Source of the DNA: Pseudooceanicola sp. HF7
GTDB lineage: Bacteria; Pseudomonadota; Alphaproteobacteria; Rhodobacterales; Rhodobacteraceae
Assembly (NCBI RefSeq): GCF_011806405.1
Contig: NZ_JAATOW010000005.1
Location: forward strand, 1 to 64,000
Direction of reading: 5' to 3'
DNA length: 64,000 nucleotides
Of this stretch, positions 1,259 to 19,457 are shown piece after piece. The stretch's first letter is position 1. Each line of letters begins with the position of its first letter. A model generated the notes under the pieces. The model was given only the letters and a program-made list of their open reading frames with translations, ran no database searches and was not told the origin of the DNA. The translations under genes and the position numbers were made by a program.

Positions 1259-1270
1259 ATGGTATGCCAT
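1259..1270. promoter_or_regulatory. Operator copy 1 (ATGGTATGCCAT)
   Basis: Near-perfect palindrome of the recurring WTGGYATRCCA type, centred about 55 bp upstream of the NIPSNAP-RidA start codon. It is one of nine copies between 1.2 and 19.5 kb, assigned by inference to the FCD-type GntR regulators encoded here. Confidence 0.65.
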
Positions 1271-1300
1271 TTAGGTGCCATAGCGGTCACCCCATGGCAA

Positions 1301-1330
1301 GACGCCCCGCGCGAATATCGGCGGGGCGTC
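1301..1330 (-). terminator. Hairpin downstream of the first gntR gene
   Basis: Ten-base perfect stem (GACGCCCCGC / GCGGGGCGTC) with a 10-base loop, 29 bp after the stop of the leftward gntR gene. On that strand it is followed by TTGCC only, so it is a strong hairpin with a weak U-tract. Confidence 0.6.
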
Positions 1331-1358
1331 GGGAAAGGGGGTAAAAAGAAGGCGGTGC

Positions 1359-2036
1359 CTAGCGCGAGATGCCGGTCAGACGGTTGATGATCGCGATCTT
1401 CACGTTGTTGATATGGCCTTCCATGGCGGCGCGGGCCTGTTCGCTGTCCCCGCCTTCGACCGCTTCAAGAAGCTTGGTGTTCTCTGTCAGGTCGAAGGTG
1501 GACTCCGTCGGATTGCGATAGGCGTTCAGCACATGGGTGCGGCGGCGCAGGTCGCGGATCATGCCCGCCAGAAGCTGGTTGCCGGAGGCATCGGCGATCT
1601 CTCCGTGCAGGCTGTCATGCACGTACCAGATATCGGCTAGGGTGGCATCTTCCTTGTCCGCCAGGGCCTGCATGGCCGTACGGATCTCTGCGCAGCGGGC
1701 CTTGGGCAGGCGGCCGGCGGCCAGGCGCGCGGCCTCGGATTCCAGCAGCTGGCGCACGTTCAGGATCTCGATCAGGGCTTCAGTGGAAAAGGGCGAAACG
1801 GTCACGCCCCGGTTGGCCTGCTTGTAGACCAGACGCTCGGCTTCCAGCCGCCCCAAGGCTTCGCGGATCGGCGTGCGCGAGGCATTCAGCCGCTCGGCCA
1901 TCCGCCGTTCCACGATCACGTCACCGGGCCGGAGTTCCCCAGAGATCAGGATCTGGATGAGTTGGTCATAGACCTGTTCGGTCAGATTCGGTTTCGTCTC
2001 TGACTCGGCACCGGTCACGGGGGTCGCAATGCTCAT
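1359..2036 (-). CDS. GntR family transcriptional regulator, FCD (FadR) subfamily
   Basis: A 225-residue regulator. Residues about 20-85 form the GntR winged helix-turn-helix (LTEQVYDQLIQILISG, then ASRTPIREALGRLEAERLV). Residues about 95-215 form the all-helical FCD ligand domain with the expected metal-binding residues in LLESEAARLAA, HDSLHGEIADASGN and EGHINN. The ATG at 2036 is chosen because ACGGAG stands about 9 bases upstream; the open frame could extend 15 codons to a TTG. It is divergent from the nitrilase-Rieske operon and close to operator copies 1 and 2, so it is the leading candidate for the regulon's repressor, with the second FCD gene at 11.8 kb. Confidence 0.92.
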   Translation of the reverse strand: MSIATPVTGAESETKPNLTEQVYDQLIQILISGELRPGDVIVERRMAERLNASRTPIREALGRLEAERLVYKQANRGVTVSPFSTEALIEILNVRQLLESEAARLAAGRLPKARCAEIRTAMQALADKEDATLADIWYVHDSLHGEIADASGNQLLAGMIRDLRRRTHVLNAYRNPTESTFDLTENTKLLEAVEGGDSEQARAAMEGHINNVKIAIINRLTGISR

Positions 2037-2111
2037 CCTCTGGCTCCGTTTTTCTTGAGGTGTGTCGCTATGTAGCGCCAACTGGCCACGCTTGGAAGGC
2101 CCGAGGTATCT

Positions 2112-2133
2112 CAGTTGTATTCCAGTTGTATTT
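2112..2133. repeat. Tandem 11-bp repeat upstream of gntR
   Basis: CAGTTGTATTC is followed directly by CAGTTGTATTT. The two 11-bp units lie between the gntR start and the nitrilase promoter, about one helical turn apart, and may be a regulator or activator site. Confidence 0.5.
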
Positions 2134-2241
2134 TGTCGCGCCCTGTTGCCGAAAATCTGGTCTGGCCCCCAGATAATCCCGCGAAATCGCCGGCCTGATC
2201 AAATCAGGGCTTGAAATCAGTGGATCCTTCTTCAAGTCTAA

Positions 2242-2253
2242 ATGGTATACCAA
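2242..2253. promoter_or_regulatory. Operator copy 2 (ATGGTATACCAA)
   Basis: Contains the perfect 10-bp palindrome TGGTATACCA, about 70 bp upstream of the nitrilase-Rieske-reductase operon and in the shared region with the divergent gntR gene. It is the best match to the consensus in the window. Confidence 0.72.
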
Positions 2254-2323
2254 CGGTGGGCAACTGGTCCGTAGCGATGGCCAGAACCACTGCGGAAGCT
2301 GAAAAGCGAACAGGGAGACGACA

Positions 2324-3391
2324 ATGACATCCTGGAGAGCGACCTGCATCCAGATGAAAAGCGCACGGGCCGCTCAGGCAAAAAGCCGGGCAGAGGCACG
2401 TGCCGTCATCGCGATGAACCGCGACAAGCTGATATCCATGATCAATGCGGCCTGTGCCTCTGGTCAGAAGCCTGACCTGGTGGTCTTCCCGGAATTCGGG
2501 ATGCAGGGGCCGCCGCTGGGCATGGAAGTGGATCAATGGATCGACTGGGCCTGCATGGAGGTGCCGGGGCCGGAGACCGCGCCGCTGCAGGATCTGGCGA
2601 GGCGGCAGGGCATCTACATCGTCGGCAACGCCTTCGAAGCGCCGGGAAAGTTTCCGGGCCGCTACTTCAACACCAGCTTCATCATCGGCCCAACGGGCGA
2701 TGTCATCCTGCTGTATCGCCGGGTCAATACGGCGGCCTTCCCCAGCGTGCATGACTTCCGCACCGATTACCTGAAGGTCACGCCACAGGATCAGGTCATG
2801 CCCGTGGTCGACACGCCCCTGGGCAAGCTCTGCGTCATCGCCTGCGGAGAGATCACGGTGCCCGAAGTGGCGCGCTGTATGATGATGCAGGGGGCAGAGG
2901 TGATCCTGCACCCCACCAACTCGCGCCACAGCGCCGCCCAGGAAGCCGCCAAGCTGTGCCGGGTGACGGAAAACATGTGCGCCATGGTCTCTGGCAACGT
3001 GGCCGGACCGATCGGCTTTTCCCCCGATGGCACCTTTACCGGCGGACGCAGCCATATCCTGGACCACCTGGGCAACACCCTGGCCTTCGAGGAAAGCGCA
3101 GAGGAAAGCATCGGCGTCAGTGCGGTGATCGACATCGACAAGCTGCGCCGTGACCGGCGCGCCGACACGGGCCTGTCCAACCCCCACCTGCGCGCCCGCT
3201 ACGAGATGTACGTGCCCTTTTACGAACAGGCGCGCTTTTACCCGGCGGACGGGTTCCTGGAGCGCCCGATGAAACATGCCTCTGAAACAGAGGCCTTGAT
3301 CGCCCGCGCCCGGGGAAACCTGGAAGCGGCGGGCATTCTCACCCCATTGCCGGCCGATGAAGCGGAACCGGTATCCACAGTTGAACTTTAG
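2324..3391 (+). CDS. Carbon-nitrogen hydrolase (nitrilase superfamily), paralogue 1
   Basis: A 355-residue cytosolic C-N hydrolase likely to cleave an amide, nitrile or carbamoyl bond. The alpha-beta-beta-alpha fold motifs are clear: Glu57 in VVFPEFG and Cys174 in IACGEITVPE, two of the three catalytic residues. The usual Lys after YR is Arg133 here (ILLYRRVN), and the paralogue at 10.5 kb shows the same change. Start ATG follows GGGAGACGAC. It heads an operon with a Rieske oxygenase (10-bp gap) and its reductase, under operator copy 2. The context suggests hydrolysis of an N-containing aromatic or its cleavage product; the substrate cannot be read from the sequence. Confidence 0.9.
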   Translation: MTSWRATCIQMKSARAAQAKSRAEARAVIAMNRDKLISMINAACASGQKPDLVVFPEFGMQGPPLGMEVDQWIDWACMEVPGPETAPLQDLARRQGIYIVGNAFEAPGKFPGRYFNTSFIIGPTGDVILLYRRVNTAAFPSVHDFRTDYLKVTPQDQVMPVVDTPLGKLCVIACGEITVPEVARCMMMQGAEVILHPTNSRHSAAQEAAKLCRVTENMCAMVSGNVAGPIGFSPDGTFTGGRSHILDHLGNTLAFEESAEESIGVSAVIDIDKLRRDRRADTGLSNPHLRARYEMYVPFYEQARFYPADGFLERPMKHASETEALIARARGNLEAAGILTPLPADEAEPVSTVEL

Positions 3392-3400
3392 GAGACGACA

Positions 3401-4735
3401 ATGATTACAGCCGAAGAAAACGTGGACCTCTGCGCCGTCGGTCGCGGCACGCTGATGGGCGAGTTCTTCCGCCAGTTCTGGACCCCGGTCTGCCTCAGCT
3501 CTGAGCTGAAGGCGGACGGCGATCCAGTCCGCCTGATGATCTTGGGCGAGAAGCTGATCGGTTTCCGCGATACCGAAGGGCGCGTGGGGGTCATGGACCA
3601 CCGCTGCCCGCACCGCTGTGCCTCTCTCTTTTTCGGGCGCAACGAACACGGCGGCATCCGCTGCGCCTACCACGGTTGGAAGTTCGACGTGAACGGCAAG
3701 TGCCTGGACCAGCCCAACCTGGAGGACAAGTCGAAGTACCCCGCCGGCACCCCGGCCTATGCCTACAAGACCTGCGAAAGCGGCGGCCTGGTCTTTGCGT
3801 ACTTCGGTGAGCGCCAGGACAATCCCCCGCCGCTGCCTGAGATCGAGGCGATCATGGGCGAGGGCAACGATGCCAACATCGCGCTGACCCACCGGGACTG
3901 CAACTATATGCAGGCGCTGGAAGGGGATATCGACACCTCCCACCTGGGCTTCCTGCACATGGGCGGGATCGACGGCGACAACCTGGATATGTCCGATCCG
4001 GAGACCTACACGATCACGGAGAAATCCCCCAAGATCAACGTCTCCGTCATGCCCTTCGGCACGATGTATTCCGCGCAGCGCGACGCGATGGAGGGTCATG
4101 AGCACCAGCGTTACGCCTCCTACCTCTTCCCCTTCTGGGTGACTTATCCCGGGGGCGGTGAGCTGGGGGATGCCAAGACCGCCAACGCCTGGGTGCCGAT
4201 AGACGACGACAGCTGCATGATCTTCAACATCGACCTGTCCCGCGCCACGGGCGGGGGGCACAAGAAGCTGAAGTACAAGGATGGCACCCCGGTCTCCGGT
4301 CTGGCGCGGCCGCTGGAATACCTGCCCACCACCACGGACTGGAAGGGCCGCTGGCGCCCGGTCAAGGATGCGTCCAACGACTACGGCATCGACCGGGACT
4401 GGCAGCGCTCAGGGGACAGCTACACCGGTATCGTCGGTGTGCCGCTGCAGGACCAGGCGATCCAGGAGAGCATGGGCCATGTGGTCGATCGCACGATGGA
4501 GCACCTGGCCGCCTCGGACCGCATGGTAATCCTGACCCGCCGCGTGATGCTGGATGCGGCTCTGGCCTGGCGCGACAACAAGGAGCTGCCCGATTTCGTG
4601 GATCATCCCGAATACGCCCGCCAGGCCCATGGCGGCGATATCGTGGTGCCCAAGGGCACCGACTGGCTGGATGGCTACGAAGAGCACATGGCCAAGGTAA
4701 AGGGCTACACGCCGCCGCCGGAGGCCGCTGAATGA
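3401..4735 (+). CDS. Rieske [2Fe-2S] aromatic ring-hydroxylating oxygenase, alpha subunit type
   Basis: A 444-residue oxygenase component. The Rieske cluster ligands are Cys69-x-His71 and Cys88-x2-His91 (CPHRCA and CAYHGW). The mononuclear iron site is seen in GDIDTSHLGFLH, with His181 and His186 and the bridging Asp178. Length and motifs resemble the phthalate 4,5-dioxygenase/vanillate O-demethylase group, which work with a one-protein reductase and act as hydroxylases or demethylases. The next gene encodes such a reductase and overlaps it by four bases (ATGA), so the pair should form a two-component oxygenase. The substrate is unknown; the nearby amidases favour a nitrogen heterocycle or N-alkyl compound, by inference. 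Confidence 0.93.
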   Translation: MITAEENVDLCAVGRGTLMGEFFRQFWTPVCLSSELKADGDPVRLMILGEKLIGFRDTEGRVGVMDHRCPHRCASLFFGRNEHGGIRCAYHGWKFDVNGKCLDQPNLEDKSKYPAGTPAYAYKTCESGGLVFAYFGERQDNPPPLPEIEAIMGEGNDANIALTHRDCNYMQALEGDIDTSHLGFLHMGGIDGDNLDMSDPETYTITEKSPKINVSVMPFGTMYSAQRDAMEGHEHQRYASYLFPFWVTYPGGGELGDAKTANAWVPIDDDSCMIFNIDLSRATGGGHKKLKYKDGTPVSGLARPLEYLPTTTDWKGRWRPVKDASNDYGIDRDWQRSGDSYTGIVGVPLQDQAIQESMGHVVDRTMEHLAASDRMVILTRRVMLDAALAWRDNKELPDFVDHPEYARQAHGGDIVVPKGTDWLDGYEEHMAKVKGYTPPPEAAE

Positions 4736-5733
4736 CGGCCCATTTTGCCAATGAGACCGGCGCAGAGGATGCGCCGGTTTCCCAGACCCAGACTCTTGAA
4801 CTGCGGGTTGAGGCCATCCGCTACGCTGCCGAAACGGTGCGCGAGGTGACGCTGGTCGCCCCCGATGGCGCAGAACTGCCGGGCATCGAACCGGGCGGCC
4901 ACGTGGATCTGCATCTGCCCGGCGACAGGATCCGCAGCTATTCCCTGACCAACGGCCCGGGTGAAACCACTGCCTACGTGGTAGCGGTGAACCGGGACGC
5001 GGCAAGCACCGGCGGCTCGGCCCATATCTGCGAGGATCTGCGCGTGGGCACGCGGCTCAGGGTCTCTACCGCGCCCAACAACTTCCCACTGGCCGAGGCC
5101 GCGGAAAGCCTGTTCTTTGCCGGGGGCATCGGGATCACCCCGGTCCTGTCGATGATCCGCCACCTGGAGGCACGAGGCGCCGCCTGGCGCCTGATCTACG
5201 CCGTGCGCAGCCGCGCCCAGGCGGCCTTTCTGAGCGAACTTCAGGCGCTCGATGCCGGCCGGGGCCGCCTTGAATTGCACGAGGATGATCGCAAGGGCGC
5301 CGTGCTCGACCTGGCGCAGCACCTGGCCGAAGCGCCCGAGGGCGCGCATCTGTACTGCTGTGGTCCCACGCCGATGATCGACGCTTTCGAGTCCCTCTGC
5401 GACGGACGCCCCGCCAGCCACGTCCATGTCGAACGCTTCGCCGGTCTCGCGGTCGAAGGTGCGGAAACCGCCTTTACCGTCGTGCTCAAGCGCAAGGGGT
5501 TGGAGTTCGAGGTCCCGCCGGGCAAGACCATCATAGAGGTGCTGCAGGAGAACGGCGTGAAGGTCGCCTATTCCTGCCAGTCCGGTGTCTGCGGCACCTG
5601 CGAGACGCGCGTGATCGAAGGCACCCCGGACCACCGCGACAATCTGCTCAGCGAGCGGGAGCGGGAGCGCGGGCAGGTCATGCTGATCTGCTGCTCGCTC
5701 GCCAAAAGCGACCGTCTGGTGCTGGATATCTAG
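4732..5733 (+). CDS. PDR/VanB-type oxygenase reductase (FMN, NAD(P)H, [2Fe-2S])
   Basis: A 333-residue reductase that passes electrons from NAD(P)H to the Rieske oxygenase. Order of domains: FMN-binding barrel with RSYSLTN (residues 68-74), NAD(P) domain with FFAGGIGITPVLSM and YCCGPTPM, then a C-terminal plant-type ferredoxin with CQSGVCGTCE and the last cysteine in LICCS. This is the phthalate dioxygenase reductase/VanB layout. The ATG overlaps the oxygenase stop (ATGA), indicating coupling. Its TAG stop overlaps the stop of the convergent exonuclease gene within CTAG. A roughly 20-residue unstructured N-terminal tail precedes the barrel. Confidence 0.94.
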   Translation: MTAHFANETGAEDAPVSQTQTLELRVEAIRYAAETVREVTLVAPDGAELPGIEPGGHVDLHLPGDRIRSYSLTNGPGETTAYVVAVNRDAASTGGSAHICEDLRVGTRLRVSTAPNNFPLAEAAESLFFAGGIGITPVLSMIRHLEARGAAWRLIYAVRSRAQAAFLSELQALDAGRGRLELHEDDRKGAVLDLAQHLAEAPEGAHLYCCGPTPMIDAFESLCDGRPASHVHVERFAGLAVEGAETAFTVVLKRKGLEFEVPPGKTIIEVLQENGVKVAYSCQSGVCGTCETRVIEGTPDHRDNLLSERERERGQVMLICCSLAKSDRLVLDI

Positions 5734-6341
5734 CCGAAGGCGGCGGGCGACAGACGCCCGTCGCGCAACAGGTGCTGCAGGGCGAAAGCGACAGAGCGCG
5801 CATCGTCCAGCGCATCATGACCGCGCAGCTCCGGCACCCCGAGCCCGAAATGATCAGCCAGCGTGTTGCTGCGCAGGCCGTGGATTTCGTCCAGCGGCAG
5901 GCCGGCGGCCAGTGTCAGGTCACAGGCATTGCCGAAGCGCGTCACCGGCAGGGGCGGCGCGATTCCGGCCACGTAGCAGCTGATCGCCACCATGTTGAAT
6001 TCGTCCTTGCCCCATGACCAGAGACGGTCATCGCCCGCGAAGTCCCCAAGCACGCTCAGCGCCGCGCCCAGCTCCTGACCTTCGGCCGCGATGGCCTCTT
6101 CCGTGATGCCGGTCAGCCGGGTGAACAGCGGGTCAAGCGGCAGGGGCGCCCCGTCGCGTCCCCGTGGTGTGACAAGGCAGGACAGGGTCTCTTCCAGTTC
6201 GAAATCACCACTCAGGGAAAGCCTCACCGCGCCGATCTGGGCAATCACCGGGTCGGGATCCTTCGGCCCGCACCAGAAGCGCATGGGCGCGCCGGGGGCG
6301 GTCAGGAATTCGCAATCATAGATCACTGCACTCTGGGTCAT
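5730..6341 (-). CDS. 3'-5' exonuclease, DEDDh family
   Basis: A 203-residue DnaQ-like exonuclease. Motif I is VIYDCEFL (Asp and Glu), a middle motif includes LTGITEEAI, and motif III is HDALDDARSVAFAL with the DEDDh His and Asp. It probably acts on nucleic acid ends in the cytosol. It is unrelated in function to the catabolic genes on both sides and looks like a housekeeping gene enclosed by the cluster. Start ATG has AGAGGAACGCC upstream. It converges on the reductase gene with a 4-bp overlap and has no operator copy upstream. Confidence 0.85.
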   Translation of the reverse strand: MTQSAVIYDCEFLTAPGAPMRFWCGPKDPDPVIAQIGAVRLSLSGDFELEETLSCLVTPRGRDGAPLPLDPLFTRLTGITEEAIAAEGQELGAALSVLGDFAGDDRLWSWGKDEFNMVAISCYVAGIAPPLPVTRFGNACDLTLAAGLPLDEIHGLRSNTLADHFGLGVPELRGHDALDDARSVAFALQHLLRDGRLSPAAFG

Positions 6342-6533: not shown

Positions 6534-7352
6534 TCAGCTCTCGCCTGCCAGGCCGCCGCCTTCGCGCCAGGGGATTGCCACCCGCTCCAGCCGCGACAGC
6601 GCGGCAAAGAACAGCATCCCCATGACGGAGATCATGATGATGGAGGCGAACTGCCGCGCGATGTCGAAGTTGGCCCCGGCAATCAGGATCAGGTAGCCCA
6701 GGCCCTTGTCGGCCCCGATGAACTCCGCGACGATGGCACCGATCACGGACAGCACCGTGGCCAGCTTCAGCCCCGCGAAGATCGACGGCAGCGCCTTGGG
6801 CAGGCGGAATTTCCAGAAGACCTCCCAGCCGTTGGCCCCCATGGAACGCGCCAGATAGAGCATTTCCGGCGTCGTCGCCTTCAGTCCCATGACCGAGTTG
6901 ATCACGATCGGGAAGAAGCTGAGCAGGATCACGATGACGATCTTCGGGGTCATGCCGTAGCCGAACCAGGTCAGCAGCAGCGGTGCGATGGCCACCTTGG
7001 GGATGGTCTGGCTCATGACGATCAGGGGGTAGACGCCGCGCTCCATGAAGCGCGAATAGACGATGGCGACGGCCAGCGGCACGCCGATGCAGACCGCGCA
7101 GAGGAACCCGAACAGGATTTCGCTGAGCGTCACCAGCGCATTGGGCCAGAGCCGGTGCCAATAGGTGATGATCTCCATCACGATGACGGAGGGCGCGGGC
7201 AGGATGAACTCCGGGATGTTGCGCAGCTCCACCAGCAGCTCCCAGGTGGCGATCAGCACGATCAGGGTCCAGATCGCCGGGGGTACCGCGTTGAAGGCGC
7301 GCTTGAAGGGGTTTTCGGCGGCGGCAAAGCCGGTATCGGGGACGGAAGCCAT
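6534..7352 (-). CDS. ABC transporter permease, NitT/TauT/SsuC type (importer 1)
   Basis: A 272-residue inner-membrane permease with about six transmembrane segments. It has the BPD_transp_1 EAA-like loop ARSMGANGWEVFWKFRLP, where the ATPase docks. The family imports taurine, alkanesulfonates, nitrate, hydroxymethylpyrimidine, riboflavin and similar small compounds. It is the last gene of a leftward operon: binding protein, SDR enzyme, ATPase, permease, with 3 bp between the ATPase stop and its start. Presence of an NMT1/THI5-like binding protein in the same operon favours a heterocyclic or pyrimidine-like ligand, by inference. Confidence 0.92.
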   Translation of the reverse strand: MASVPDTGFAAAENPFKRAFNAVPPAIWTLIVLIATWELLVELRNIPEFILPAPSVIVMEIITYWHRLWPNALVTLSEILFGFLCAVCIGVPLAVAIVYSRFMERGVYPLIVMSQTIPKVAIAPLLLTWFGYGMTPKIVIVILLSFFPIVINSVMGLKATTPEMLYLARSMGANGWEVFWKFRLPKALPSIFAGLKLATVLSVIGAIVAEFIGADKGLGYLILIAGANFDIARQFASIIMISVMGMLFFAALSRLERVAIPWREGGGLAGES

Positions 7353-7355
7353 GGC

Positions 7356-8216
7356 TCAGTATTCCTCTCTGAAGACGCCGAGGTTCTTGAAGATATCCGT
7401 GATCTCGTGGACGTAGCCCAGGAACTTCGGATCCTCGCGCATGGCAAGGCGACGGGGGCGGGGCAGGTCGATGTCGAACACCTGCTCGATGCGCCCGGGG
7501 CGCGGGGTCATCACCACCACCCGGTCCGACAGGAAGATCGCCTCTGAAATCGAATGGGTGATGAAGAAGACCGTCATGTCGCGCTCCGAACAGAGGCGCA
7601 GCAGGTCGATCTGCAGCTGGTCGCGGGTCATCGCGTCCAGCGCGCCGAAGGGTTCGTCCATCAGCATCAGCGGCGGCTCATGCAGCAGCGCGCGGCAGAT
7701 GGAGACCCGCTGGCGCATGCCGCCTGACAGCTCGCGCGGCAGCGCATCCTCGAAATCCGCAAGAGAGACCATGCGCAGCAGGGCGCGGGCCTTTTCCAGG
7801 GCCTCCTTCTTGTCCATCTTGCGCAGCTCGGCCTGGATCAGCACGTTGTCCAACGCCGTGCGCCATTCCAGCAACACGTCCTGCTGAAAGACGATGCCGA
7901 GGTCCGAATTGGGCTTCAGGATCTCCTTGCCGCCCACGTTGATGTCGCCCGATGTCCGTCCCAGCAGGCCCGACAGCAGCATCAACAGGGTGGATTTCCC
8001 GCAGCCCGACGGCCCCAGGACGGACACGAATTCGCCTCGCTTGATATCAAGATCGACGGCGCGCAGGGCTTCGACCTCTCCCTTGCGGGAGCGGAAGATC
8101 TTGTTCACGCCCTTGATGGACACATGGCCCGGGGCGTCCGGGTCGTGGGGCGGGGTGAGGACGCCGGGCGCTTCCAGGCCGGTCGTCAGGCTGTCATTTG
8201 CTGGCATTGCATTCAT
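7356..8216 (-). CDS. ABC transporter ATP-binding protein, NitT/TauT type (importer 1)
   Basis: A 286-residue ATPase. Walker A is GPSGCGKST, the Q-loop is VFQQDVLLEW, the signature is LSGGMRQR and Walker B is LMLMDEPFGALD, with the switch His in FFITHS. About 30 N-terminal residues precede the nucleotide-binding domain. It should couple with the 6.5-kb permease and the 9.2-kb binding protein. An SDR gene lies between it and the binding-protein gene. Confidence 0.95.
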   Translation of the reverse strand: MNAMPANDSLTTGLEAPGVLTPPHDPDAPGHVSIKGVNKIFRSRKGEVEALRAVDLDIKRGEFVSVLGPSGCGKSTLLMLLSGLLGRTSGDINVGGKEILKPNSDLGIVFQQDVLLEWRTALDNVLIQAELRKMDKKEALEKARALLRMVSLADFEDALPRELSGGMRQRVSICRALLHEPPLMLMDEPFGALDAMTRDQLQIDLLRLCSERDMTVFFITHSISEAIFLSDRVVVMTPRPGRIEQVFDIDLPRPRRLAMREDPKFLGYVHEITDIFKNLGVFREEY

Positions 8217-8272
8217 GCGCGTTCACTCCGGCTCTGCGGCCGGTCCCTGTTGGTTGGAATTGGCAAGGGGGA

Positions 8273-9061: not shown

Positions 9062-9086
9062 GGGTCTTCTCTTTCTTCAAGCTGCG

Positions 9087-9147
9087 ACCCGGAGGGGGAA
9101 GACCTCCGGGTGCAGGGAAGCGGGGCCGGGAAGGGGGCACCGGCCCC
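9087..9147 (-). promoter_or_regulatory. Two stem-loops after the binding-protein gene
   Basis: GGGGCCGG/CCGGCCCC (9122-9147) and ACCCGGAGG/CCTCCGGGT (9087-9111) form two stable hairpins between the binding-protein stop and the SDR start. No U-tract follows. This position is typical of mRNA-stabilising or attenuating hairpins that raise binding-protein output over downstream genes. Confidence 0.55.
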
Positions 9148-9165
9148 GCGCGTGGCGATCTGGGA

Positions 9166-11610: not shown

Positions 11611-11622
11611 TTGGTATACCGA
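11611..11622. promoter_or_regulatory. Operator copy 5 (TTGGTATACCGA)
   Basis: GGTATACC core palindrome upstream of the paralogue 2 hydrolase start, in the region shared with the divergent second gntR gene. Confidence 0.62.
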
Positions 11623-11757: not shown

Positions 11758-11767
11758 TGGTGGACCA
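11758..11767. promoter_or_regulatory. Operator-like site 6 (TGGTGGACCA)
   Basis: Keeps the TGGT and ACCA half-sites but has GG at the centre. It lies about 75 bp upstream of the second gntR start and may serve autoregulation. It is the weakest copy. Confidence 0.4.
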
Positions 11768-11842: not shown

Positions 11843-12541
11843 GTGGACCGTATCGCCATGACGAAAGACCTGCTGGCAGAGCCTGGCTCGACCGCGGAGG
11901 CGCCGGATCAGAGCCTGGCGAATGTCGCCTACGGGCGGATCATGGACATGCTGCTCTCCGGCCAGGTCAAGCCGGGCGAGGCCCTGCATGAACGCCGCCT
12001 GGCCCAGATGATGCAGATCTCGCGCACCCCGGTGCGCGAAGCGCTCTTCCGCCTGGAAGCAGAGGCGCTGCTGATCCGCGGGGCAGGGCGCAACCTGGTC
12101 GTGGCCGATATCAGCGTTGAAAGCTACGTCCGCCTTCTGGACCTGCGCCGCATCCAGGAGGTAGAGGCCGCAGCCCGCGCCACCGGGCGCATCACGCCAG
12201 AGGTCCTGGTCCGGGTTGAAGCCGCGCTCGATCACCTGTTGCAATTGAACGAGGTCACCTCGGCCCAGCACTGGGCCGTCGATGACCTGGTGCATCACTC
12301 CATCGCCGAGGCCGCGGGCAACCCGATGCTGACACAGTCGATCCGCGACCTGCGGCGGCGCACCCATATCTTCAACACGCACCGGATCTCTCACCGGCTG
12401 CGCCCAGGGGCAGAGGAACACCGCGCCCTGATCCGGGCGGCGGCGGGCGATGATCCGGACCACACCCGGCAGCTCATGGGCGATCATATTGATCACGTGC
12501 GGGATGCAATCGTGGATTACATCCTCGGCATCAGGCGTTAG
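11843..12541 (+). CDS. GntR family transcriptional regulator, FCD subfamily (second copy)
   Basis: A 232-residue regulator from a GTG at 11843, chosen because GAAAGGGA stands 5-10 bases upstream; an ATG five codons later is equally possible. The winged helix (LANVAYGRIMDMLLSGQ, then ISRTPVREALFRLEAEALL) is followed by an FCD domain with DDLVHHSIAEAAGNPML and a C-terminal MGDHIDH. It is clearly related to the 1.4-kb regulator (shared IRDLRRRTH block). It is divergent from nitrilase paralogue 2 and directly upstream of an MFS gene. It and the other GntR could share the ATGGTATACCAA operators. Confidence 0.9.
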   Translation: MDRIAMTKDLLAEPGSTAEAPDQSLANVAYGRIMDMLLSGQVKPGEALHERRLAQMMQISRTPVREALFRLEAEALLIRGAGRNLVVADISVESYVRLLDLRRIQEVEAAARATGRITPEVLVRVEAALDHLLQLNEVTSAQHWAVDDLVHHSIAEAAGNPMLTQSIRDLRRRTHIFNTHRISHRLRPGAEEHRALIRAAAGDDPDHTRQLMGDHIDHVRDAIVDYILGIRR

Positions 12542-12570: not shown

Positions 12571-14025
12571 ATGTCAGAAACGACAGAGACCGCCCGTCCG
12601 GCGGTCAGATCCCGTTTTCCCTTTCTTGATCGCGGAACGCCGCGCCTGCTGGCGGCCTCGATGCTGGCGCTCTTCATGGCCGCGCTCGACCAGACCATCG
12701 TCGGGCCGGTGCTCGCCGATATCCTGGCGGAATTCGGCGGCGGCGCGCTGCTGGCCTGGGTACCCACGGGCTTCCTGCTGGTCGCCATGGTGGCCGCGCC
12801 GCTCTATGGCGCGGTGGCCGATATCCAGGGGCGGCGCTTTGCGCTGCTGCTGGCCAACGTGCTCTTCCTGGGTGGCTCCATCGCCTGCGCGCTGGCCCCC
12901 TCGCTCTGGCTTCTGGTGCTGGCGCGCCTCTTGCAGGGCGCGGGCGCGGGGGGCCTTGTCTCCATCCCCTTCATCATCGTCGCGGACCGCGTGCCAATGA
13001 GCCGCCGACCGCTTTTCAGCGCCTTCATCTCCACCATCTACGCGGTGGCGGGGCTGGCCGGGCCGCTCGCGGGTGGCGCGCTGGCGGAATACATGAGCTG
13101 GCGGTGGGTCTTCTGGATCAACCTGCCGGCCTGCCTGCTGGTGTGGTACGGGGTGCAGACGGCGCTGGCCCCGCGCGCGGCCTCACGCGGGCGTCAGATC
13201 GACTGGACCGGGGCCTTCCTGCTGCTCTGCGCCTCCGTGCCGCTTTTGCTGATCTTCACCGGCGGCGAAGCCGGGGCAGAGGCCGCTGGCCCGCTGCTGC
13301 CCGTGCCCGTCCTGGGCGCGCTCAGCGCGCTGTTCTGGGGTCTCTTCGCCTGGCGGATGCTGCGTGCAAAGGATCCGCTGATCCCGGTCAAGGTGCTGAC
13401 CAACCGCTCCATCCTTCTGGCCTCCCTCGGGCTGGCCTGCTGCGGCGGGGCCAACATCGGGCTGGCGGTTTACCTGCCGCTCTATTTCCAGAAGTTCCAC
13501 GGGCTGAGCGCAAGCGAGGCCGGCATGACCCTGCTGGCGATGATCTCCGGCGGGTTGGTTGGGGCCTATATCCCGCCGCAGATCCTGCGCTTCTACCCTT
13601 CCTACAAGCCGCTCATGGTCGGGTCCGCCCTTGGCGCGGCGATCAGCGGGCTGGCCCTGACCTGGATCATGGCCGGGCAACCCACGCTGGGCGCGCTTCT
13701 GCTGCCGATGTGGATCATGGGGCTTTGCATCGGGCTGCTCTTTCCGATCTTCCCTCTGGTGGTGCAGAACGCCGCAGAACCCGTGCAGATGGGGTCGGCC
13801 ATCGGCGTGCTGTCCTTCCTGCGTTCCATGGGGGGCACGGTGGGCGTGTCCATCATCGGGATGATGGCCGTGGGATCGGGGCTGGCCGTGGACATCCTGC
13901 CCGATGACCCCCTCCCGATCTGGAGCCTGGGGGCCGCGGCTGCCGGGATCATGATGGTGGCCTTCCTCGGCCTGTCCTGCCTGCCCAACCGCAAGCTTGA
14001 AGGCTTCGGGCGGGCTCGCCGCTAA
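12571..14025 (+). CDS. MFS transporter, DHA2-like drug:H+ antiporter type
   Basis: A 484-residue inner-membrane protein with many hydrophobic segments, consistent with 14 helices. The N-terminal MAALDQTIVGPVLADI is the DHA2 motif D1-type sequence, and PLYGAVADIQGRRFAL holds the loop 2-3 motif. Members export drugs and toxic organic compounds by proton antiport. It follows the FCD regulator by 29 bp and is probably co-transcribed, suggesting export of an intermediate or of the inducer. A transcription terminator follows. Confidence 0.9.
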   Translation: MSETTETARPAVRSRFPFLDRGTPRLLAASMLALFMAALDQTIVGPVLADILAEFGGGALLAWVPTGFLLVAMVAAPLYGAVADIQGRRFALLLANVLFLGGSIACALAPSLWLLVLARLLQGAGAGGLVSIPFIIVADRVPMSRRPLFSAFISTIYAVAGLAGPLAGGALAEYMSWRWVFWINLPACLLVWYGVQTALAPRAASRGRQIDWTGAFLLLCASVPLLLIFTGGEAGAEAAGPLLPVPVLGALSALFWGLFAWRMLRAKDPLIPVKVLTNRSILLASLGLACCGGANIGLAVYLPLYFQKFHGLSASEAGMTLLAMISGGLVGAYIPPQILRFYPSYKPLMVGSALGAAISGLALTWIMAGQPTLGALLLPMWIMGLCIGLLFPIFPLVVQNAAEPVQMGSAIGVLSFLRSMGGTVGVSIIGMMAVGSGLAVDILPDDPLPIWSLGAAAAGIMMVAFLGLSCLPNRKLEGFGRARR

Positions 14026-14044
14026 GATGCGGGATCTAAACGAC

Positions 14045-14099: not shown

Positions 14100-15026
14100 T
14101 CAGCCCAGTTCGGCCAGGCGCTTCTCCAGCCGTCCCATCAGGAAATCGACCTCTGCCATGGCCTCCGGGGACAGGCTGGCCCCCGGCTTGCGCATCGCCG
14201 GGCTGGCAATCGCCCCGCGTTTGGCCAGCACGTACTTGCGCACCGCCAGCCCAAGACCCGGCTGCGCCTCGTAGCGCACCAGCGGCAGGTAGGCATCGAA
14301 CAGGTCCTGCGCGCGGTCATAGTCGCCCGCCTCGGACAGCTTGACCACCTGCGCCAGCATCTCGGGATAAGCAAAACCCGTCATCGACCCATCGGCGCCG
14401 CGCCGCATTTCCTCGGCCAGGAACAGCCCGGCGTTGGCCACGAAGATCGACCGCCGCACCTGGCCCGCCGCCTCTGCCTTGCGGATGGCGGTGATCTTTT
14501 CCAGCCCCGGCCAGTCCTCGTGCTTCAGCATCACGATGGAGGGGTGGTCATTGAAGATCTGGTTCATCGTCGGGACAGAGATGTTCACCCCCGTGGCCAG
14601 CGGGAAATCCTGCAGGCAGACGGGCACGTCGGTGCCGATCGTGTCGATGACATTGCCGTAATAGGCGCGGATCGTCTCGTTCGTGGTCAGCGATCCCGGC
14701 GGGGCCACCAGCACCCCGGAGGCGCCTTCATCCATGACCGCGGCGGTCAGATCGCGGATCGCCGCCAGCCCGGGGGCCGAAACACCCACGATCACGGGGC
14801 GCCCCGCCATCCGCTTCAGCGTCGCGCGGGTGATCTCCAGCGCCTCTGTTGGGGTCAGCTTGGGCGCTTCCCCCATCATGCCAAGGATGGTCAGACCGTC
14901 TGCCCCGGCCTCCATGTAGAAATCGATCACGCGGTCCAGGCTGGGCCAGTCGATATCGCCATCCGGGGTAAAGGGCGTGACGGCGATGACGAAGACGCCT
15001 TTGGTGCTTGAAGAAATCAGGGGCAT
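14100..15026 (-). CDS. Dihydrodipicolinate synthase (DapA) family aldolase/lyase
   Basis: A 308-residue (beta/alpha)8 barrel of the DapA/N-acetylneuraminate lyase family. The Schiff-base lysine is in IVMLKHEDWPG and the substrate carboxylate region is GMMGEAPKLTPTEALEI, with Glu where the usual GTTGE reads MMGE. Members perform retro-aldol or dehydration reactions on 2-oxo acids. The start at 15026 is chosen for MPLISSSTKG, with AGGAAAG upstream. It follows the importer 2 binding-protein gene on the same strand by 146 bp. It may cleave a keto-acid product of the pathway; the exact reaction is not known. Confidence 0.87.
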   Translation of the reverse strand: MPLISSSTKGVFVIAVTPFTPDGDIDWPSLDRVIDFYMEAGADGLTILGMMGEAPKLTPTEALEITRATLKRMAGRPVIVGVSAPGLAAIRDLTAAVMDEGASGVLVAPPGSLTTNETIRAYYGNVIDTIGTDVPVCLQDFPLATGVNISVPTMNQIFNDHPSIVMLKHEDWPGLEKITAIRKAEAAGQVRRSIFVANAGLFLAEEMRRGADGSMTGFAYPEMLAQVVKLSEAGDYDRAQDLFDAYLPLVRYEAQPGLGLAVRKYVLAKRGAIASPAMRKPGASLSPEAMAEVDFLMGRLEKRLAELG

Positions 15027-15172
15027 GGCTGCGAAGTCTTTCCTGTGCGTTGAGGCGCCGCCGGGACGGGCGACGCCGGTCTTTGATATCTCCGGTCCGG
15101 CCGTCACCGGCCCGGCAGGCCCGATCCGTCGACGCGGTGGGCCAGAGTAAACCGAACCCAGGTCAGTCGACC

Positions 15173-16165
15173 TCAGTCCGCGGGAACGTAGACCACGTCC
15201 GCCGGCTCCAGATCCTTGGACAGCGGCGTGACCTTGTTCACCACCGCGATGTTATGCGCCACGCGCTCCATGTCGAAGACATATCCGTTGCTGGCGAAGA
15301 CATCGTTGTCAAAGGCAAAGGAAAGCGAGTTCGGCACCATCTGCGCCTGCGCCGGGCGCTGCATCCCGTCCACATGGGCCACGATGGCATCCACGGCGGC
15401 CTCGGGATCGGCCTGGGCGGCGTCATAGGTGCATTGCACCGCCGCGGCAAAGCGGGCGACCAGGTCGGGATTGGTCGCGATCATCTTGTCAGAGGTGAAG
15501 ATGGAGGCGTTGTAGATGTCCAGCGTGTCGCCGTAATAGACCGCGCGCACCGATTTCCCGACCCCTTCTGCCACCGCGTTCAGCCCCACGACGGACGTCA
15601 CGTAAGAGGCCAGCGCATCGATCTTGCCCTGCAACAGCAGCCCGTTCAGCGCCGAATAATCCGCCGTGGTCTTCTCGATCTTGTCGTAATCGGCTCCGGC
15701 CATCTCCACACCCAGCGGCAGGAAGGTCATGGCCGAATTGCCCACCGAAGAGCCCACGGTATGCCCCTCCAGGTCGGTCAGGGACTGGATCGGGCTGTCC
15801 GACAGCACCGCCACGGAAGAGGGGTTCTGCGACACGATCGGCATGATCGCCTTGACCGGGGCATCGGTCTCGGAAACGGAGCTGATCAGCGTGCCAAGAT
15901 CGGTGACAGAGAAATCCGCAACCCCGGTGGCGACCTTTGTCACCGCATCCGCCGCGCCATACCCGCGAGAGATCGTGATATCGATGTCCTGATCGGCAAA
16001 GCAGCCCTCATCGAGCCCCAGGTAATAGGCGGCAGAGATCCCGCCCGGGGTCCAGTCCAGCTGGAAGGCAACGGGATCCGCGGCCATGGCCGGCCCGGCA
16101 AGCGATAGGCCAAGGGCAAGAGCAGGGGCAGCGCCTGTGCCAACTTTGGGCAGGGGGAAAGTCAT
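15173..16165 (-). CDS. ABC transporter substrate-binding protein, NMT1/THI5-like (importer 2)
   Basis: A 330-residue periplasmic binding protein. The signal peptide runs to about residue 28 (ALGLSLAGPAMAA). The mature start is DPVAFQLDWTPGGISAAYYL, with GLDEGCFADQDIDITI after it, matching NMT1/THI5 proteins. A cysteine pair (CFADQD, VQCTYDAA) may form a disulfide. Its permease and ATPase are most likely those at 17.6-19.2 kb, transcribed in the same direction beyond the divergent M20 gene. Operator copy 7 lies 35 bp upstream. Confidence 0.9.
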   Translation of the reverse strand: MTFPLPKVGTGAAPALALGLSLAGPAMAADPVAFQLDWTPGGISAAYYLGLDEGCFADQDIDITISRGYGAADAVTKVATGVADFSVTDLGTLISSVSETDAPVKAIMPIVSQNPSSVAVLSDSPIQSLTDLEGHTVGSSVGNSAMTFLPLGVEMAGADYDKIEKTTADYSALNGLLLQGKIDALASYVTSVVGLNAVAEGVGKSVRAVYYGDTLDIYNASIFTSDKMIATNPDLVARFAAAVQCTYDAAQADPEAAVDAIVAHVDGMQRPAQAQMVPNSLSFAFDNDVFASNGYVFDMERVAHNIAVVNKVTPLSKDLEPADVVYVPAD

Positions 16166-16199: not shown

Positions 16200-16211
16200 T
16201 TGGCATACCAC
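16200..16211. promoter_or_regulatory. Operator copy 7 (TTGGCATACCAC)
   Basis: TGGCATACCA palindrome-like core between two divergent genes, the importer 2 binding protein and the M20 amidohydrolase, so one site could control both. Confidence 0.62.
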
Positions 16212-16306: not shown

Positions 16307-17497
16307 ATGCAGATGGAAAAGGTGTTTGCGGCAGTCTCGGCGCATCAGGATGAAATGGTCGCCCTGCGTCGGGACATCCACATGCATCCCGAGACCAGCT
16401 ATGAGGAACACCGCACCTCTGCCATCGTGATGCAGAAGCTAAAAGAGTGGGGGATCGAAGCCCACCAGGGCCTGGCCGGCACCGGCGTTGTCGCGGTGAT
16501 CAGGGGCAATCGTCCGGGCAATCGCTCCGTCGGGCTGCGTGCCGACATGGATGCGCTCAACATGACAGAGACCAATGACTTTGCCCATAAATCGACCATT
16601 CCGGGCAAGTTCCACGGCTGCGGGCATGACGGGCATACCACCATGCTGCTGAATGCGGCGCGCTACCTGAAAGAGAACCCCGATTTCGGCGGCACGGTGC
16701 ATTGCATCTTCCAGCCCGCGGAAGAGGGCGGCGCGGGCGGTCAGAGGATGATCGAGGAGGGGCTCTTTGACCAGTTCCCCTGCGACGCGGTCTATTCGCT
16801 GCACAACAAGCCGGGCCTGCCGGTGGGCAGCTTCATCACCCGGGTCGGCGGCCAGCTGGCCTGCGCGGACCAGTGGCAGGTGACCTTCAACGGCACCGGC
16901 GGCCATGCCGGCGCGCCGGAAAAGTCGGTCGACCTGATGACGGCGCTGGCGCATTTCATCCTGGGCATCCAGGGGATCGTCGCACGCAACATCGTGGCCC
17001 AGGAAAGCGCCGTGCTGACCATCGGCATCATCGAGGCGGGGACAAGCCACAACGTCATGCCCGCCCGGATCGTGGTCACCGGGACGGCCCGCTGCCACAA
17101 CTTCGACATCCGCGCCCTGCTTCAGAAACGCCTCAGGGAGGTGGCCGATAGCGCGGCCGCCATGTGCTTGGCTAGCGCCGAGCTGGTCTATGACGAAGGC
17201 TACCCGCCGCTGGTCAATGCCGCCGATCAGACCGCCATCGCGGTCGCTGCCGCCACCGCACTTGCCGGGGCAGAGAACGTGGATGGCAACAGCCCGCCCA
17301 TCAATGCCGCCGATGATTTCGCCTACATGGCAATCGCGCGCCCGAGCTGCAACGTGATGATGGGCAATGGCGACGGCCCGGAGTGGAAGAACAACCACAG
17401 GCCCGATTACGACTTCAATGACGAGATCATCCCCTGGGGCACCGCCTACTGGGTCTCCGTCGTGAACCAGGAGCTTGGGGATGGGGCGGCGGCCTGA
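16307..17497 (+). CDS. M20 family metallo-amidohydrolase (M20D-like), copy 1
   Basis: A 396-residue zinc/manganese amidohydrolase of the hippurate hydrolase/N-acyl-amino acid deacylase type. Metal-binding motifs are HGCGHDGHTTMLL and FQPAEEGGAGGQRM, with RADMDALNM before them. The dimerisation domain spans roughly residues 185-295 (NGTGGHAGAPEKS). ATG follows AGAGAGGA. It is cytosolic (no signal) and removes acyl or carbamoyl-like groups from an amide nitrogen. The operator between it and the importer 2 binding protein places it in the regulon. A second M20 protein is at 21.6 kb. Confidence 0.92.
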   Translation: MQMEKVFAAVSAHQDEMVALRRDIHMHPETSYEEHRTSAIVMQKLKEWGIEAHQGLAGTGVVAVIRGNRPGNRSVGLRADMDALNMTETNDFAHKSTIPGKFHGCGHDGHTTMLLNAARYLKENPDFGGTVHCIFQPAEEGGAGGQRMIEEGLFDQFPCDAVYSLHNKPGLPVGSFITRVGGQLACADQWQVTFNGTGGHAGAPEKSVDLMTALAHFILGIQGIVARNIVAQESAVLTIGIIEAGTSHNVMPARIVVTGTARCHNFDIRALLQKRLREVADSAAAMCLASAELVYDEGYPPLVNAADQTAIAVAAATALAGAENVDGNSPPINAADDFAYMAIARPSCNVMMGNGDGPEWKNNHRPDYDFNDEIIPWGTAYWVSVVNQELGDGAAA

Positions 17498-17547
17498 CCT
17501 GCCGCGCCTTCCGGAGCGTCCCAATCGGGGGCGCCAGCACCAAACGA

Positions 17548-17573
17548 AAGGGCCGGCGGAGACACCGGCCCTT
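17548..17573. terminator. Hairpin between convergent M20 and permease genes
   Basis: AAGGGCCGG and CCGGCCCTT form a 9-bp stem with an 8-base loop between the two stop codons; usable from both sides. Confidence 0.72.
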
Positions 17574-17597
17574 GGTCGTTCCGCGCTTCGTCTGCGC

Positions 17598-18365
17598 TCA
17601 ATCGCCCGCGTCGGTCTTGATCGACCAGGCGAAAAAGCCGCGATGAATCCAGTTCACCGCCTGGTACAAAAGCACCGAGATCAGCGCCAGCATCACCACG
17701 CAGGCGGTGGCCGTGGGGATCGCGAACTGCGCCGTGGAAGAGGTCACAAGATAGCCCAGCCCCTTGTTGGCGTTGACGAATTCCGCCACCACCGCGCCGA
17801 TGACCGCCACCGTCACGCCGATGCGCAGACCGGAGAAGATGAAGGACACCGCATGGGGCAGGCGCACGGTCAGGATCTCCACCATGGTCGAGGCCCCGGC
17901 AACCCGCGCCAGGTCCAGCATCTCTGACGGCGTGTCCATCATGCCCGATGCGGTGGCGACCATGATCGGGAAGAAGCAGGTCAGGGTGACGATGATCAGC
18001 CGCGTGGTCTCATCCGTGCCGAAGATCACCACCAGGATCGGCGCGATGGCGATGATCGGGATGGCATTGAAGAAGACGATCAGTGGATAGAACATCTCTG
18101 AAATGGTGCGGTTGACCGATACCAGCACGCCCAGCGGAATGCCCACGCAGCAGGCGCAGAAGAAGCCCAGCACGATGGTATTCAGCGTCTGCAGGGCATG
18201 GTCGAACAGCACAAGCCCCAGCCCCTGGCCGCCGCCCCAGATGTCAGAGGGCGCGGGCATCAGGTAGACCGGGATCTCGAAGGTGACAGAGGCCAGCTGC
18301 CAGAGCGCGATGAAGGTGACGAAGGTGGCGACGGGCAGGACGACCTTGCGGACAGCGGGGCTCAT
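17598..18365 (-). CDS. ABC transporter permease, NitT/TauT type (importer 2)
   Basis: A 255-residue inner-membrane permease with about six helices and the ATPase-docking loop ARVAGASTMVEILTVRLPHA. Start ATG overlaps the stop of the upstream ATPase gene by four bases (ATGA). It pairs with the ATPase at 18.4 kb and probably with the NMT1 protein at 15.2 kb. It resembles the 6.5-kb permease in length and family but is clearly divergent in sequence, so the two systems are not a recent duplication. Confidence 0.92.
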   Translation of the reverse strand: MSPAVRKVVLPVATFVTFIALWQLASVTFEIPVYLMPAPSDIWGGGQGLGLVLFDHALQTLNTIVLGFFCACCVGIPLGVLVSVNRTISEMFYPLIVFFNAIPIIAIAPILVVIFGTDETTRLIIVTLTCFFPIMVATASGMMDTPSEMLDLARVAGASTMVEILTVRLPHAVSFIFSGLRIGVTVAVIGAVVAEFVNANKGLGYLVTSSTAQFAIPTATACVVMLALISVLLYQAVNWIHRGFFAWSIKTDAGD

Positions 18366-19234
18366 GCCTGGACCTCCCGGCGCTTGCGCGGCCCGAAGAT
18401 GTCATCGCGGATCCGCCGGGAATACTCGTGGAAGGCGGGCAGGGCGCCGCTTTCGGGCCCCCGCGGCTTCGGGATGTCGACCTCGATCAGGTCCTGCAGC
18501 CGCCCGGGGCGCGCGGACATCACCGCCACCCGGTCAGACAGCAGCACCGCTTCGGAAATCGAATGCGTGACCAGCAGGATGGTCTTCTTGGTGCGCGCGT
18601 GGATCTCCAGCAGGTCCAGTTGCAGATCCTCCCGCGTCAGCGCATCCAGCGCGCCGAAGGGTTCATCCATCAGCAGGATCTTGGGATCCAGGATCAGGCT
18701 ACGCGCGATGGAGGCCCGCTGCTGCATGCCCCCCGACAGCTCATGCGGCATCCGCTTGGCCATCTCCGCCAGCCCGACAAGCTCCAGCAGCTCAAGGGCG
18801 CGCGCCTTGTCCTCTTTCGTCGCGCGGCCACGCAGCACGCGGGCGGGATAAAGCACGTTGTCCAGCACGTTGCGCCAGGGCAGCAGCGTGGGGCGCTGGA
18901 ACACGATCGCCACCTCCGAAAAGCCCTGCCGCGTCTTGCCGCCACCGATCCAGAAATCCCCCGAGCTCAGCGGTTGAAGCCCGGCCAGGATACGCAGCGC
19001 CGTGGATTTCCCGCAGCCCGACGGCCCGACGAGAGAGACGATCTCCTCGCGGTAGATCGTCAGGTTCAGATCCTCCAGCGCGGTCAGCGCCTCGCCTTTG
19101 CGGGTCTCGAAGGTGACACCGGCATGGGACAGCTCGATGATCGGTTCCTTGCGCTCCGCAGAGGGCTTTGGCGCGGGCGGCGTGGCGCGCGCGACCAGGG
19201 TCAGCGCCGGGTCGCGCAGGGGGGCTTGGGTCAT
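18362..19234 (-). CDS. ABC transporter ATP-binding protein, NitT/TauT type (importer 2)
   Basis: A 290-residue ATPase with Walker A GPSGCGKST, Q-loop VFQRPTLLPWRN, signature LSGGMQQR, Walker B ILLMDEPFGALD and switch LLVTHS. The start at MTQAPLRDP (19234) is preferred over upstream codons because it leaves room for the operator at 19287 and gives normal length; its ribosome site is weak (GTGAG). It is the first gene of a two-gene leftward unit with the permease. Confidence 0.93.
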   Translation of the reverse strand: MTQAPLRDPALTLVARATPPAPKPSAERKEPIIELSHAGVTFETRKGEALTALEDLNLTIYREEIVSLVGPSGCGKSTALRILAGLQPLSSGDFWIGGGKTRQGFSEVAIVFQRPTLLPWRNVLDNVLYPARVLRGRATKEDKARALELLELVGLAEMAKRMPHELSGGMQQRASIARSLILDPKILLMDEPFGALDALTREDLQLDLLEIHARTKKTILLVTHSISEAVLLSDRVAVMSARPGRLQDLIEVDIPKPRGPESGALPAFHEYSRRIRDDIFGPRKRREVQA

Positions 19235-19286
19235 GTCGTGGCTCACTTTGGTCTTGTCCTGCGGGGTGCGGGCACCCCTCGACAAC

Positions 19287-19298
19287 ATGGCATACCGT
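19287..19298. promoter_or_regulatory. Operator copy 8 (ATGGCATACCGT)
   Basis: About 53 bp upstream of the importer 2 ATPase start. The core TGGCATACC matches the consensus; the right arm is degenerate. Confidence 0.5.
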
Positions 19299-19445
19299 AG
19301 GAGTACCAATTGCCAGCGCAAAGCCGCGCGTCCCCGGAAAGAAGCCTCTCGCTGCCGAAATAGTGAGCGCAAATGCCAATAATTGAGCGCCGCTTTCGCC
19401 CCGATCTCCCCAAATTCACCCGCGAAATTGCCGCGGGGCATTTCG

Positions 19446-19457
19446 ATGGTGTACCAA
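19446..19457. promoter_or_regulatory. Operator copy 9 (ATGGTGTACCAA)
   Basis: Palindrome-like TGGTGTACCA about 33 bp upstream of the SDR pair at 19.5 kb. This is the last copy found moving rightward. Confidence 0.6.

Follow-up and report, generated by a model that had tools for sequence, protein, structure and literature searches.

A pair of FCD-type GntR regulators and predicted operators with phased units in a putative cyclic-amide or ureide regulon of Pseudooceanicola sp. HF7

The first 64,000 nucleotides of contig NZ_JAATOW010000005.1 of Pseudooceanicola sp. HF7 (the window) contain a gene cluster in which a short palindrome, TGGTATACCA, recurs in promoter regions, together with two genes, GntR1 and GntR2, for related GntR regulators with an FCD domain. 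With good confidence we propose that these palindromes are the central units of operators of one FCD-GntR subfamily, that the operators carry tandem units, that they join the genes in one regulon for a cyclic amide or ureide, and that both regulators likely bind them. Under this model the uptake and the hydrolytic and oxidative breakdown of a hydantoin-type compound of this kind would be served by about eleven predicted promoters, of which ten lie in the window and one on an abutting contig. Each operator would consist of a strong TGGYATRCCA unit and weaker tGGnATrCCA units exactly 11 base pairs (bp) away on one or both sides, a spacing at which several dimers could line up along the same face of the helix. 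Both GntR1 and GntR2 would most likely bind and autoregulate, and would repress the cluster without substrate until intermediates of the pathway release them.

An original prediction, made from the window's sequence, had reported nine copies of the palindrome. All nine are present, with 10-mers that begin at the positions in Table 1; eight are clear and the one at 11758 is weak. At up to two mismatches, TGGTATACCA has 23 matches in the window, compared with a mean of 6.9 and a maximum of 12 in 100 dinucleotide shuffles. If GG..CC is required, there are 11 matches between 1001 and 20000 (shuffle mean 1.4, largest 7), eight of them with an in-phase flank as described below (mean 0.3, largest 3). 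Between 20001 and 64000 there are seven such matches (mean 3.1, largest 7), three with an in-phase flank (mean 0.6, largest 3); hence, the background is also somewhat raised. That no copy lies between 20 and 64 kilobases (kb), as had been claimed, holds at one mismatch or fewer, while nine two-mismatch copies are found there. One of these, at 40782, has the same 10-mer as the copy at 11758, which is why we call the latter a weak site.

The whole-genome motif search that had been suggested shows the cluster to be enriched. In the 4.27 Mb genome (74 contigs), TGGTATACCA has 27 sites at one mismatch or fewer, seven of which belong to the cluster: six within 1260–19456 and one on another contig (C53 in our numbering). 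Even density would give about 0.1 such site in this 18-kb stretch. The other 20 sites lie elsewhere, and a reversed control pattern has 32 matches in the whole genome compared with the 27 of TGGTATACCA. Perfect sites number four, two in the window, one on C53 and one on contig C72, so that three of the four are in the cluster. We set the C72 palindrome aside as a member of the regulon because it lies inside a gene of the major facilitator superfamily (MFS).

For all nine window copies, the centre of the site is 38.5–125.5 bp from a likely start codon. The start codons nearest to the sites belong to RidA/NIPSNAP, Nit1-Rieske-reductase, the operon of the substrate-binding protein SBP1, Nit2, GntR2-MFS, SBP2 with a dihydrodipicolinate-synthase-like gene, ATPase2-permease2 and SDR2-SDR3 (genes as in Table 1). 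GntR1 and the M20 amidohydrolase share the gaps of sites 2243 and 16201, at distances of 214.5 and 101.5 bp, and four divergent gaps hold six of the nine sites. The starts of GntR1, GntR2, ATPase2 and SDR2 were chosen among possible ones, and the longest frames would cover some sites. With these starts, the expected preference for intergenic DNA is seen for nine of the 12 GG..CC matches in the first 20 kb; three (498, 4314 and 16631) are genic.

The set of nine was incomplete. A tenth, perfect copy lies on C53 (position 13692), about 95 bp upstream of a hydantoinase gene, behind which a racemase-like gene runs into the contig end. The window begins at base 1 of its own contig (C48) with the remainder of such a gene, which we presume to be a racemase from a VLGCAG stretch that we take to be a signature of these enzymes. 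C53 and C48 almost certainly abut, because a single racemase-like gene is divided between their ends: the pieces match one gene, 45 nucleotides apart, in three related loci (L037, L044 and L046). The tenth site would thus be part of the same cluster. The dihydropyrimidinase/hydantoinase on C53 is above the cut-off of two families (TIGR02033, 487.5 vs 393.25; NF009941, 720.2 vs 647), and the racemase-like piece on C53 has no NCBIfam match at 1e-3. The earlier interpretation missed this extension of the regulon beyond the contig end, and it missed that the operator is larger than the palindrome.

The sites recur in the same promoters of related clusters, in agreement with the earlier claim of one regulon for one pathway. 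With GntR1 as query, a species-level genome collection yielded 11 alphaproteobacterial loci (64–83% identity) from Pseudooceanicola, Celeribacter, Rhizobium-type genomes (4), Devosia (2), Maritimibacter (2) and Tropicimonas. From GntR2 to RidA the genes are in the same order throughout the stretch that each locus covers, with two kinds of exception: nine loci have an additional amidohydrolase between GntR1 and NIPSNAP, and the two Maritimibacter loci have extra DNA beside permease 1 (Perm1). The Nit1/GntR1 gap and the regions before SBP1 and before NIPSNAP carry a site in all 11 relatives, and the Nit2/GntR2 gap does in all 10 that could be read that far; some of these sites have two mismatches. 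A second one-mismatch site upstream of SBP1, the counterpart of 10300, is also found in L037, and in L037, L039, L047 and L068 the corresponding position upstream of GntR2 has a weak counterpart of 11758.

The right module of the cluster (SBP2, M20, transporter 2 and SDR2/3) was sought through SBP2 and is present in five of nine genomes. In the four relatives fetched, the SBP2/M20 gap and the ATPase2 (ATP2)/SDR2 gap have sites throughout; the counterpart of 16201 lies near SBP2 in a fifth relative, and a second site in the ATP2/SDR2 gap, the counterpart of 19447, is found in three of the four. This search and one for perfect palindromes covered nine of the 11 relatives, that is, all except L037 and L045, a near copy of L044. 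A hand count from the list puts 10 of the 14 perfect palindromes in these nine genomes inside the cluster. Two of the others (L070 and L071) have no GntR1 relative within 3 kb and no in-phase boxes, one is at a contig start and one (L069) neighbours a different GntR gene that has two further sites.

L069 (Tropicimonas genome G653, contig C39, about 401.6–402.7 kb) contains a GntR gene with 37% identity to GntR1 over 107 residues and three TGGTATACCA-type sites in front of it. By eye, its neighbours are thiamine-diphosphate-enzyme-like and CoA-transferase-like genes, and its sites are perhaps another regulon of a related regulator.

Plasmid records contained no GntR1 relative at 60% identity or more (2236 records had a match, all below). 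Sampled genomes of the family and order gave no further close ortholog: seven of 394 match GntR1 at E ≤ 1e-35 and the own genome alone below 1e-41, and for GntR2 one of 390 sampled genomes, again the own, has a match at E ≤ 1e-45.

The operator, as far as its sequence tells, is longer than the palindrome, with a strong central unit and weaker units one helical turn away. We aligned the sites on the core and pooled the flanks without choosing an orientation. Position +18, counted 11 bp outward from the first C in the CC of the core, is a C in 18 of the 20 own flanks (with 28% C, P ~1e-8, uncorrected for the 21 columns viewed). The same holds for 82 of 106 flanks in relatives (one site with its two flanks was omitted, being too near the locus end), 16 of 22 in the right module and 9 of 12 in the distant members of the subfamily described below, compared with 18 of 46 flanks of background core-like matches. 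A GG/CC dinucleotide at the 11-bp step accompanies eight of the ten own sites, from different promoters, and zero to two at steps up to 6 bp off. Among the relatives it accompanies 45 of 54 sites, with 29 at two steps (22 bp) and zero to ten at other steps, and in the distant subfamily loci it is found at all six. When all relatives are added up, the consensus of the outer columns is tGGnATrCCA, so that on either side the core has a fainter repeat of itself, displaced by 11 bp. We also searched the genome with a composite pattern that includes the 11-bp step. Of its 44 rows, 8 fall within the cluster and cover seven of the ten sites; since the pattern was composed from the own sites, it is descriptive for them. 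The off-by-one control with a 12-bp step, one base longer, places none of 47 rows there. Several in-phase units per operator, the mark of a tandem arrangement, are thus present at the level of sequence.

One could also argue that the outer boxes are promoter elements or leftovers of repeat expansion, and that a single dimer sits on the core alone. We consider this quite unlikely. The boxes are indeed degenerate and sometimes one-sided, and in the outer part the logo of the own sites is strong at +18 only. Neither promoter elements nor leftovers would easily account for an exact phase that own, relatives' and distant sites share at the frequencies just given. In addition, the perfect palindromes of L070 and L071, with no GntR1 relative nearby, have no boxes, although the C72 palindrome has one.

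Several further observations weigh against the proposed model. At two sites, 2243 and 11612, no GG/CC stands in phase on the outside. The former has a C at +18 and an inner in-phase GG in its right flank, and the latter has only one base in phase per flank. At some further-out step (14 bp beyond), up to five of the ten own sites also have GG/CC, which makes the dinucleotide test noisy by itself. In-phase GG/CC is found at 7 of 21 background sites, the perfect C72 site included, and two of the three sites beside the related GntR gene of L069 are without any in-phase box, which would also suit a dimer on the core alone. Lastly, a promoter scan gave no excess over shuffles (3 vs 2.9), so that repression by promoter overlap is left with one candidate.

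Which protein would bind these operators? The presence of two related FCD-type regulators, noted in the original prediction, stands: in GntR1 and GntR2 the GntR helix-turn-helix (HTH) and FCD domains (PF00392 and PF07729) are above cut-off, and both genes occur in all 11 relatives, in L045 on the same contig. They are 37% identical; a search of the genome with GntR1 at E ≤ 1e-10 gives 12 further matches, of 23–35% identity. The Pfam HTH match starts near residue 17 of the 224-residue form of GntR1, so that no long N-terminal extension is evident. The assignment of the palindrome to the FadR type (TGGT-N2-ACCA) is also supported. The rule in the main text of Suvorova et al. (2015, PMC4494728) is a TKGT/ACMA palindrome with 2–3 nucleotides between GT and AC, which the TGGT-AT-ACCA-type cores follow, and a 2-nucleotide spacing is listed there for several FadR-subfamily groups.

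Eight distant members of the subfamily (37–42% identity) come from six other genomes of the family. Five of their eight loci carry the core at one mismatch or fewer (six sites), and the other three have none of that grade. At eight loci where the own genome encodes other FCD regulators there is no site at one mismatch or fewer and one two-mismatch match in all. Since the motif is present in loci of distant members with other genes, it goes with this GntR subfamily. It is very improbable, then, that another regulator, unlinked to the cluster, controls it through the palindrome: such a regulator would have to explain why the motif follows the subfamily into other loci, and the TGGT-N2-ACCA form is one already known for FadR-subfamily regulators (PMC4494728). 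Very probably, the sites of the cluster are docking sites for its own GntR pair.

A tree of 36 rows unites the subfamily in a single clade (support 95/98), within which GntR1 (98/94) and GntR2 (99/99) are separate clades; the tree leaves their sister relation unsettled. Neither the tree nor the residue counts include GntR1 of L047, whose match is broken across two frames. An Arg at what we take to be the place of FadR Arg35 is found in all 28 subfamily rows and in one of the eight others. Both regulators therefore probably recognise the motif, judging from these residues and the shared motif, and it is likely that they share sites. A difference between them lies in the FCD domain, where a residue that we presume to be a metal ligand is Asn in all 11 GntR1 rows and His in all nine GntR2 and all eight distant rows; at another presumed metal-ligand position, Asp is replaced by His in the GntR1 of the window. 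This would fit different ligands for the two, of which it is the only hint.

There is some chance, well short of even, that one regulator alone, most likely GntR1 beside Rieske and Nit1, binds all sites and that GntR2 acts elsewhere or by another route. No two-class split among the sites is evident by eye, which sharing explains equally, and 11758, directly before GntR2, is the weakest site. Three facts speak against a single binder. First, both proteins fall within the same subfamily clade, and its distant members also have the motif at their loci. Second, the presumed contact residues (R, R, T and R) are identical in 11 of 11 GntR1 and 9 of 9 GntR2 rows. Third, none of the 11 relatives has lost either gene. 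If, as we prefer, both regulators bind, they may work together on the multi-unit operators as mixed neighbouring dimers or heterodimers, a version of the model on which we would not bet. In such a two-input switch, GntR2 would respond through its FCD metal site and GntR1, with its His-to-Asn change, to another intermediate without it.

Comparable operators exist. The repeats of the NanR operator of E. coli are 8–9 bp apart. They are direct repeats, unlike the units found here, which are palindromic and 11 bp apart. NanR is itself an FCD-type GntR, with a (GGTATA)3 operator on which three dimers are reported side by side (PMC8012715), and the likeness lies in the several close repeats of a GGTAT-like unit. 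Our pair scores 52.7 and 38.1 bits in the NanR family NF003011, far below its cut-off of 260. UxuR and ExuR of E. coli are a paralogous FCD-GntR pair with mutual targets in one pathway and reported heterodimers (PMC9369180), as GntR1 and GntR2 are paralogous FCD-GntR regulators, in a different pathway. Here, too, both proteins score far below the cut-offs: GntR1 has 41.3 vs 396 for ExuR (NF008571) and 34.6 vs 442 for Uxu (NF007588), for which GntR2 scores 31.5. Finally, extra weaker boxes 7–12 nucleotides from the centre are described in 13 FadR-subfamily groups (PMC4494728). In contrast to those half-sites, the box here is fixed at the 11-bp step, often on both sides, and becomes a nearly full second palindrome in relatives. 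The main text of that study names no nitrilase, hydantoin or dihydropyrimidinase, and the group tables in its supplements may include this group.

Our open-literature searches, and we can speak for those searches only, found no description of this cluster. Among the matches listed for the TGGTATACCA string none is on GntR by title, and among those listed for ergothioneine and hydantoin-5-propionate none is on this cluster by title. The kinds of component (extra half-sites, repeat operators, paired FCD regulators) are known; what is new, as far as our searches show, is this instance of them, a cluster with its own regulators and a strict 11-bp spacing.

We infer the substrate class, a cyclic amide or ureide of the hydantoin type, from the genes. 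Hydantoin utilisation clusters of the hyu type combine a hydantoinase, a racemase-like protein and nitrilase-superfamily and M20 hydrolases. The present cluster differs in adding a Rieske oxygenase and reductase, two SsuA/NMT1-like ATP-binding cassette (ABC) systems, NIPSNAP and RidA, and carbamoylase roles in it are putative. Relatives of the hydantoinase are found in Celeribacter just after SDR3 (79% identity) and in Pseudooceanicola beside the racemase (85%). The neighbours of distant subfamily members were scanned in three loci, and L030 has a hydantoinase/carbamoylase-family amidase above cut-off (TIGR01879, 242.8 vs 204); below cut-off are allantoinase- and ureidoglycolate-lyase-like genes in L029 and an M24 hydrolase-like gene in L032. 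Nit1 matches chains of N-carbamoyl-D-amino-acid hydrolase at about 1e-11, with other amidases scoring equally or better and no cut-off reached.

Some of the gene content does not sit well with this picture. The other nine relatives have a different amidohydrolase (25–28% identity) between GntR1 and NIPSNAP, and the hydantoinase of L037 has no site at up to two mismatches just upstream. Four of the nine genomes searched have no relative of SBP2. Nit1, Nit2, Rieske and M20 reach no substrate-specific cut-off. Use of ergothioneine was considered, as the Rhizobium-type amidohydrolase (scanned in L040) resembles ErtD; we dropped it on this one step, whose score is under the cut-off (498.6 vs 600).

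The analysis provides a predicted operator, regulators and a gene list for an unnamed pathway for a nitrogen compound in alphaproteobacteria of several families. The cluster could also serve as a test system for two FCD-GntR paralogs sharing one operator, and its 11-bp tandem layout recasts the published half-sites around GntR sites as a model that lends itself to sharp tests.

Table 1. Predicted operator cores and genes of the cluster in the window
Feature	Position	Strand	Remarks
Core TGGTATGCCA	1260–1269		before NIPSNAP-RidA; right outer box in phase
Perfect core	2243–2252		between GntR1 (−) and Nit1 (+)
Core TGGTATGCCG	10232–10241		before SBP1 operon; left outer box in phase
Second, perfect core	10300–10309		before SBP1 operon; left outer box in phase
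Core TGGTATACCG	11612–11621		between Nit2 (−) and GntR2 (+)
Weak core TGGTGGACCA	11758–11767		before GntR2; left GG in phase
Core TGGCATACCA	16201–16210		between SBP2 (−) and M20 (+); both outer boxes in phase
Core TGGCATACCG	19288–19297		before ATP2-Perm2; right outer box in phase
Core TGGTGTACCA	19447–19456		before SDR2-SDR3; both outer boxes in phase
Asp/Glu/hydantoin-racemase-like gene, C-terminal end	1–126	+	first 123 bases coding; other part ends C53
RidA/YjgF-like protein	143–595	−	
NIPSNAP-domain protein	595–1209	−	
GntR1, GntR HTH and FCD	1359–2033	−	ATG at 2033; longer TTG frame to 2081
Nit1, nitrilase-superfamily amidase	2324–3391	+	
Rieske oxygenase, phthalate 4,5-dioxygenase-like	3401–4735	+	
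Oxygenase reductase with C-terminal 2Fe-2S domain	4732–5733	+	
ABC transporter 1 operon	6534–10179	−	SBP1 9166–10179, short-chain dehydrogenase SDR1 8273–9061, ATPase 7356–8216, permease 6534–7352; permease and ATPase named by eye from translations, supported by synteny
Nit2, nitrilase-superfamily amidase	10532–11554	−	49% identical to Nit1
GntR2, GntR HTH and FCD	11858–12541	+	start 11858 chosen; longest frame from 11768
DHA2-like MFS transporter	12571–14025	+	behind GntR2
SBP2 and dihydrodipicolinate-synthase-like protein	14100–16165	−	SBP2 15173–16165, synthase-like 14100–15107; synteny
M20 amidohydrolase	16307–17497	+	
ABC transporter 2	17598–19246	−	permease 17598–18365; ATPase 18362 to about 19246, start chosen; synteny
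SDR2-SDR3, two short-chain dehydrogenases	19490–20865	+	SDR2 from about 19490, start chosen; synteny

The DHA2-type MFS protein has 25 NCBIfam matches listed, mostly efflux pumps and all below cut-off. A gene at 5730–6341 (−) overlaps the end of the reductase gene on the opposite strand; it is 3'-5' exonuclease-like by eye, has no Pfam match at 1e-3 and has no operator that we could find upstream. Just outside the regulon, at 21620–22807 (+), is a second M20-type amidohydrolase by eye, with no core match nearby. In Devosia aurantiaca, gene matches in L047 (6242–10634) and in L072 of the same genome (8024–9204 and 10051–10826) are split in two, namely those of Rieske, reductase, GntR1, M20 and ATP2, which points to decay or to sequence errors.

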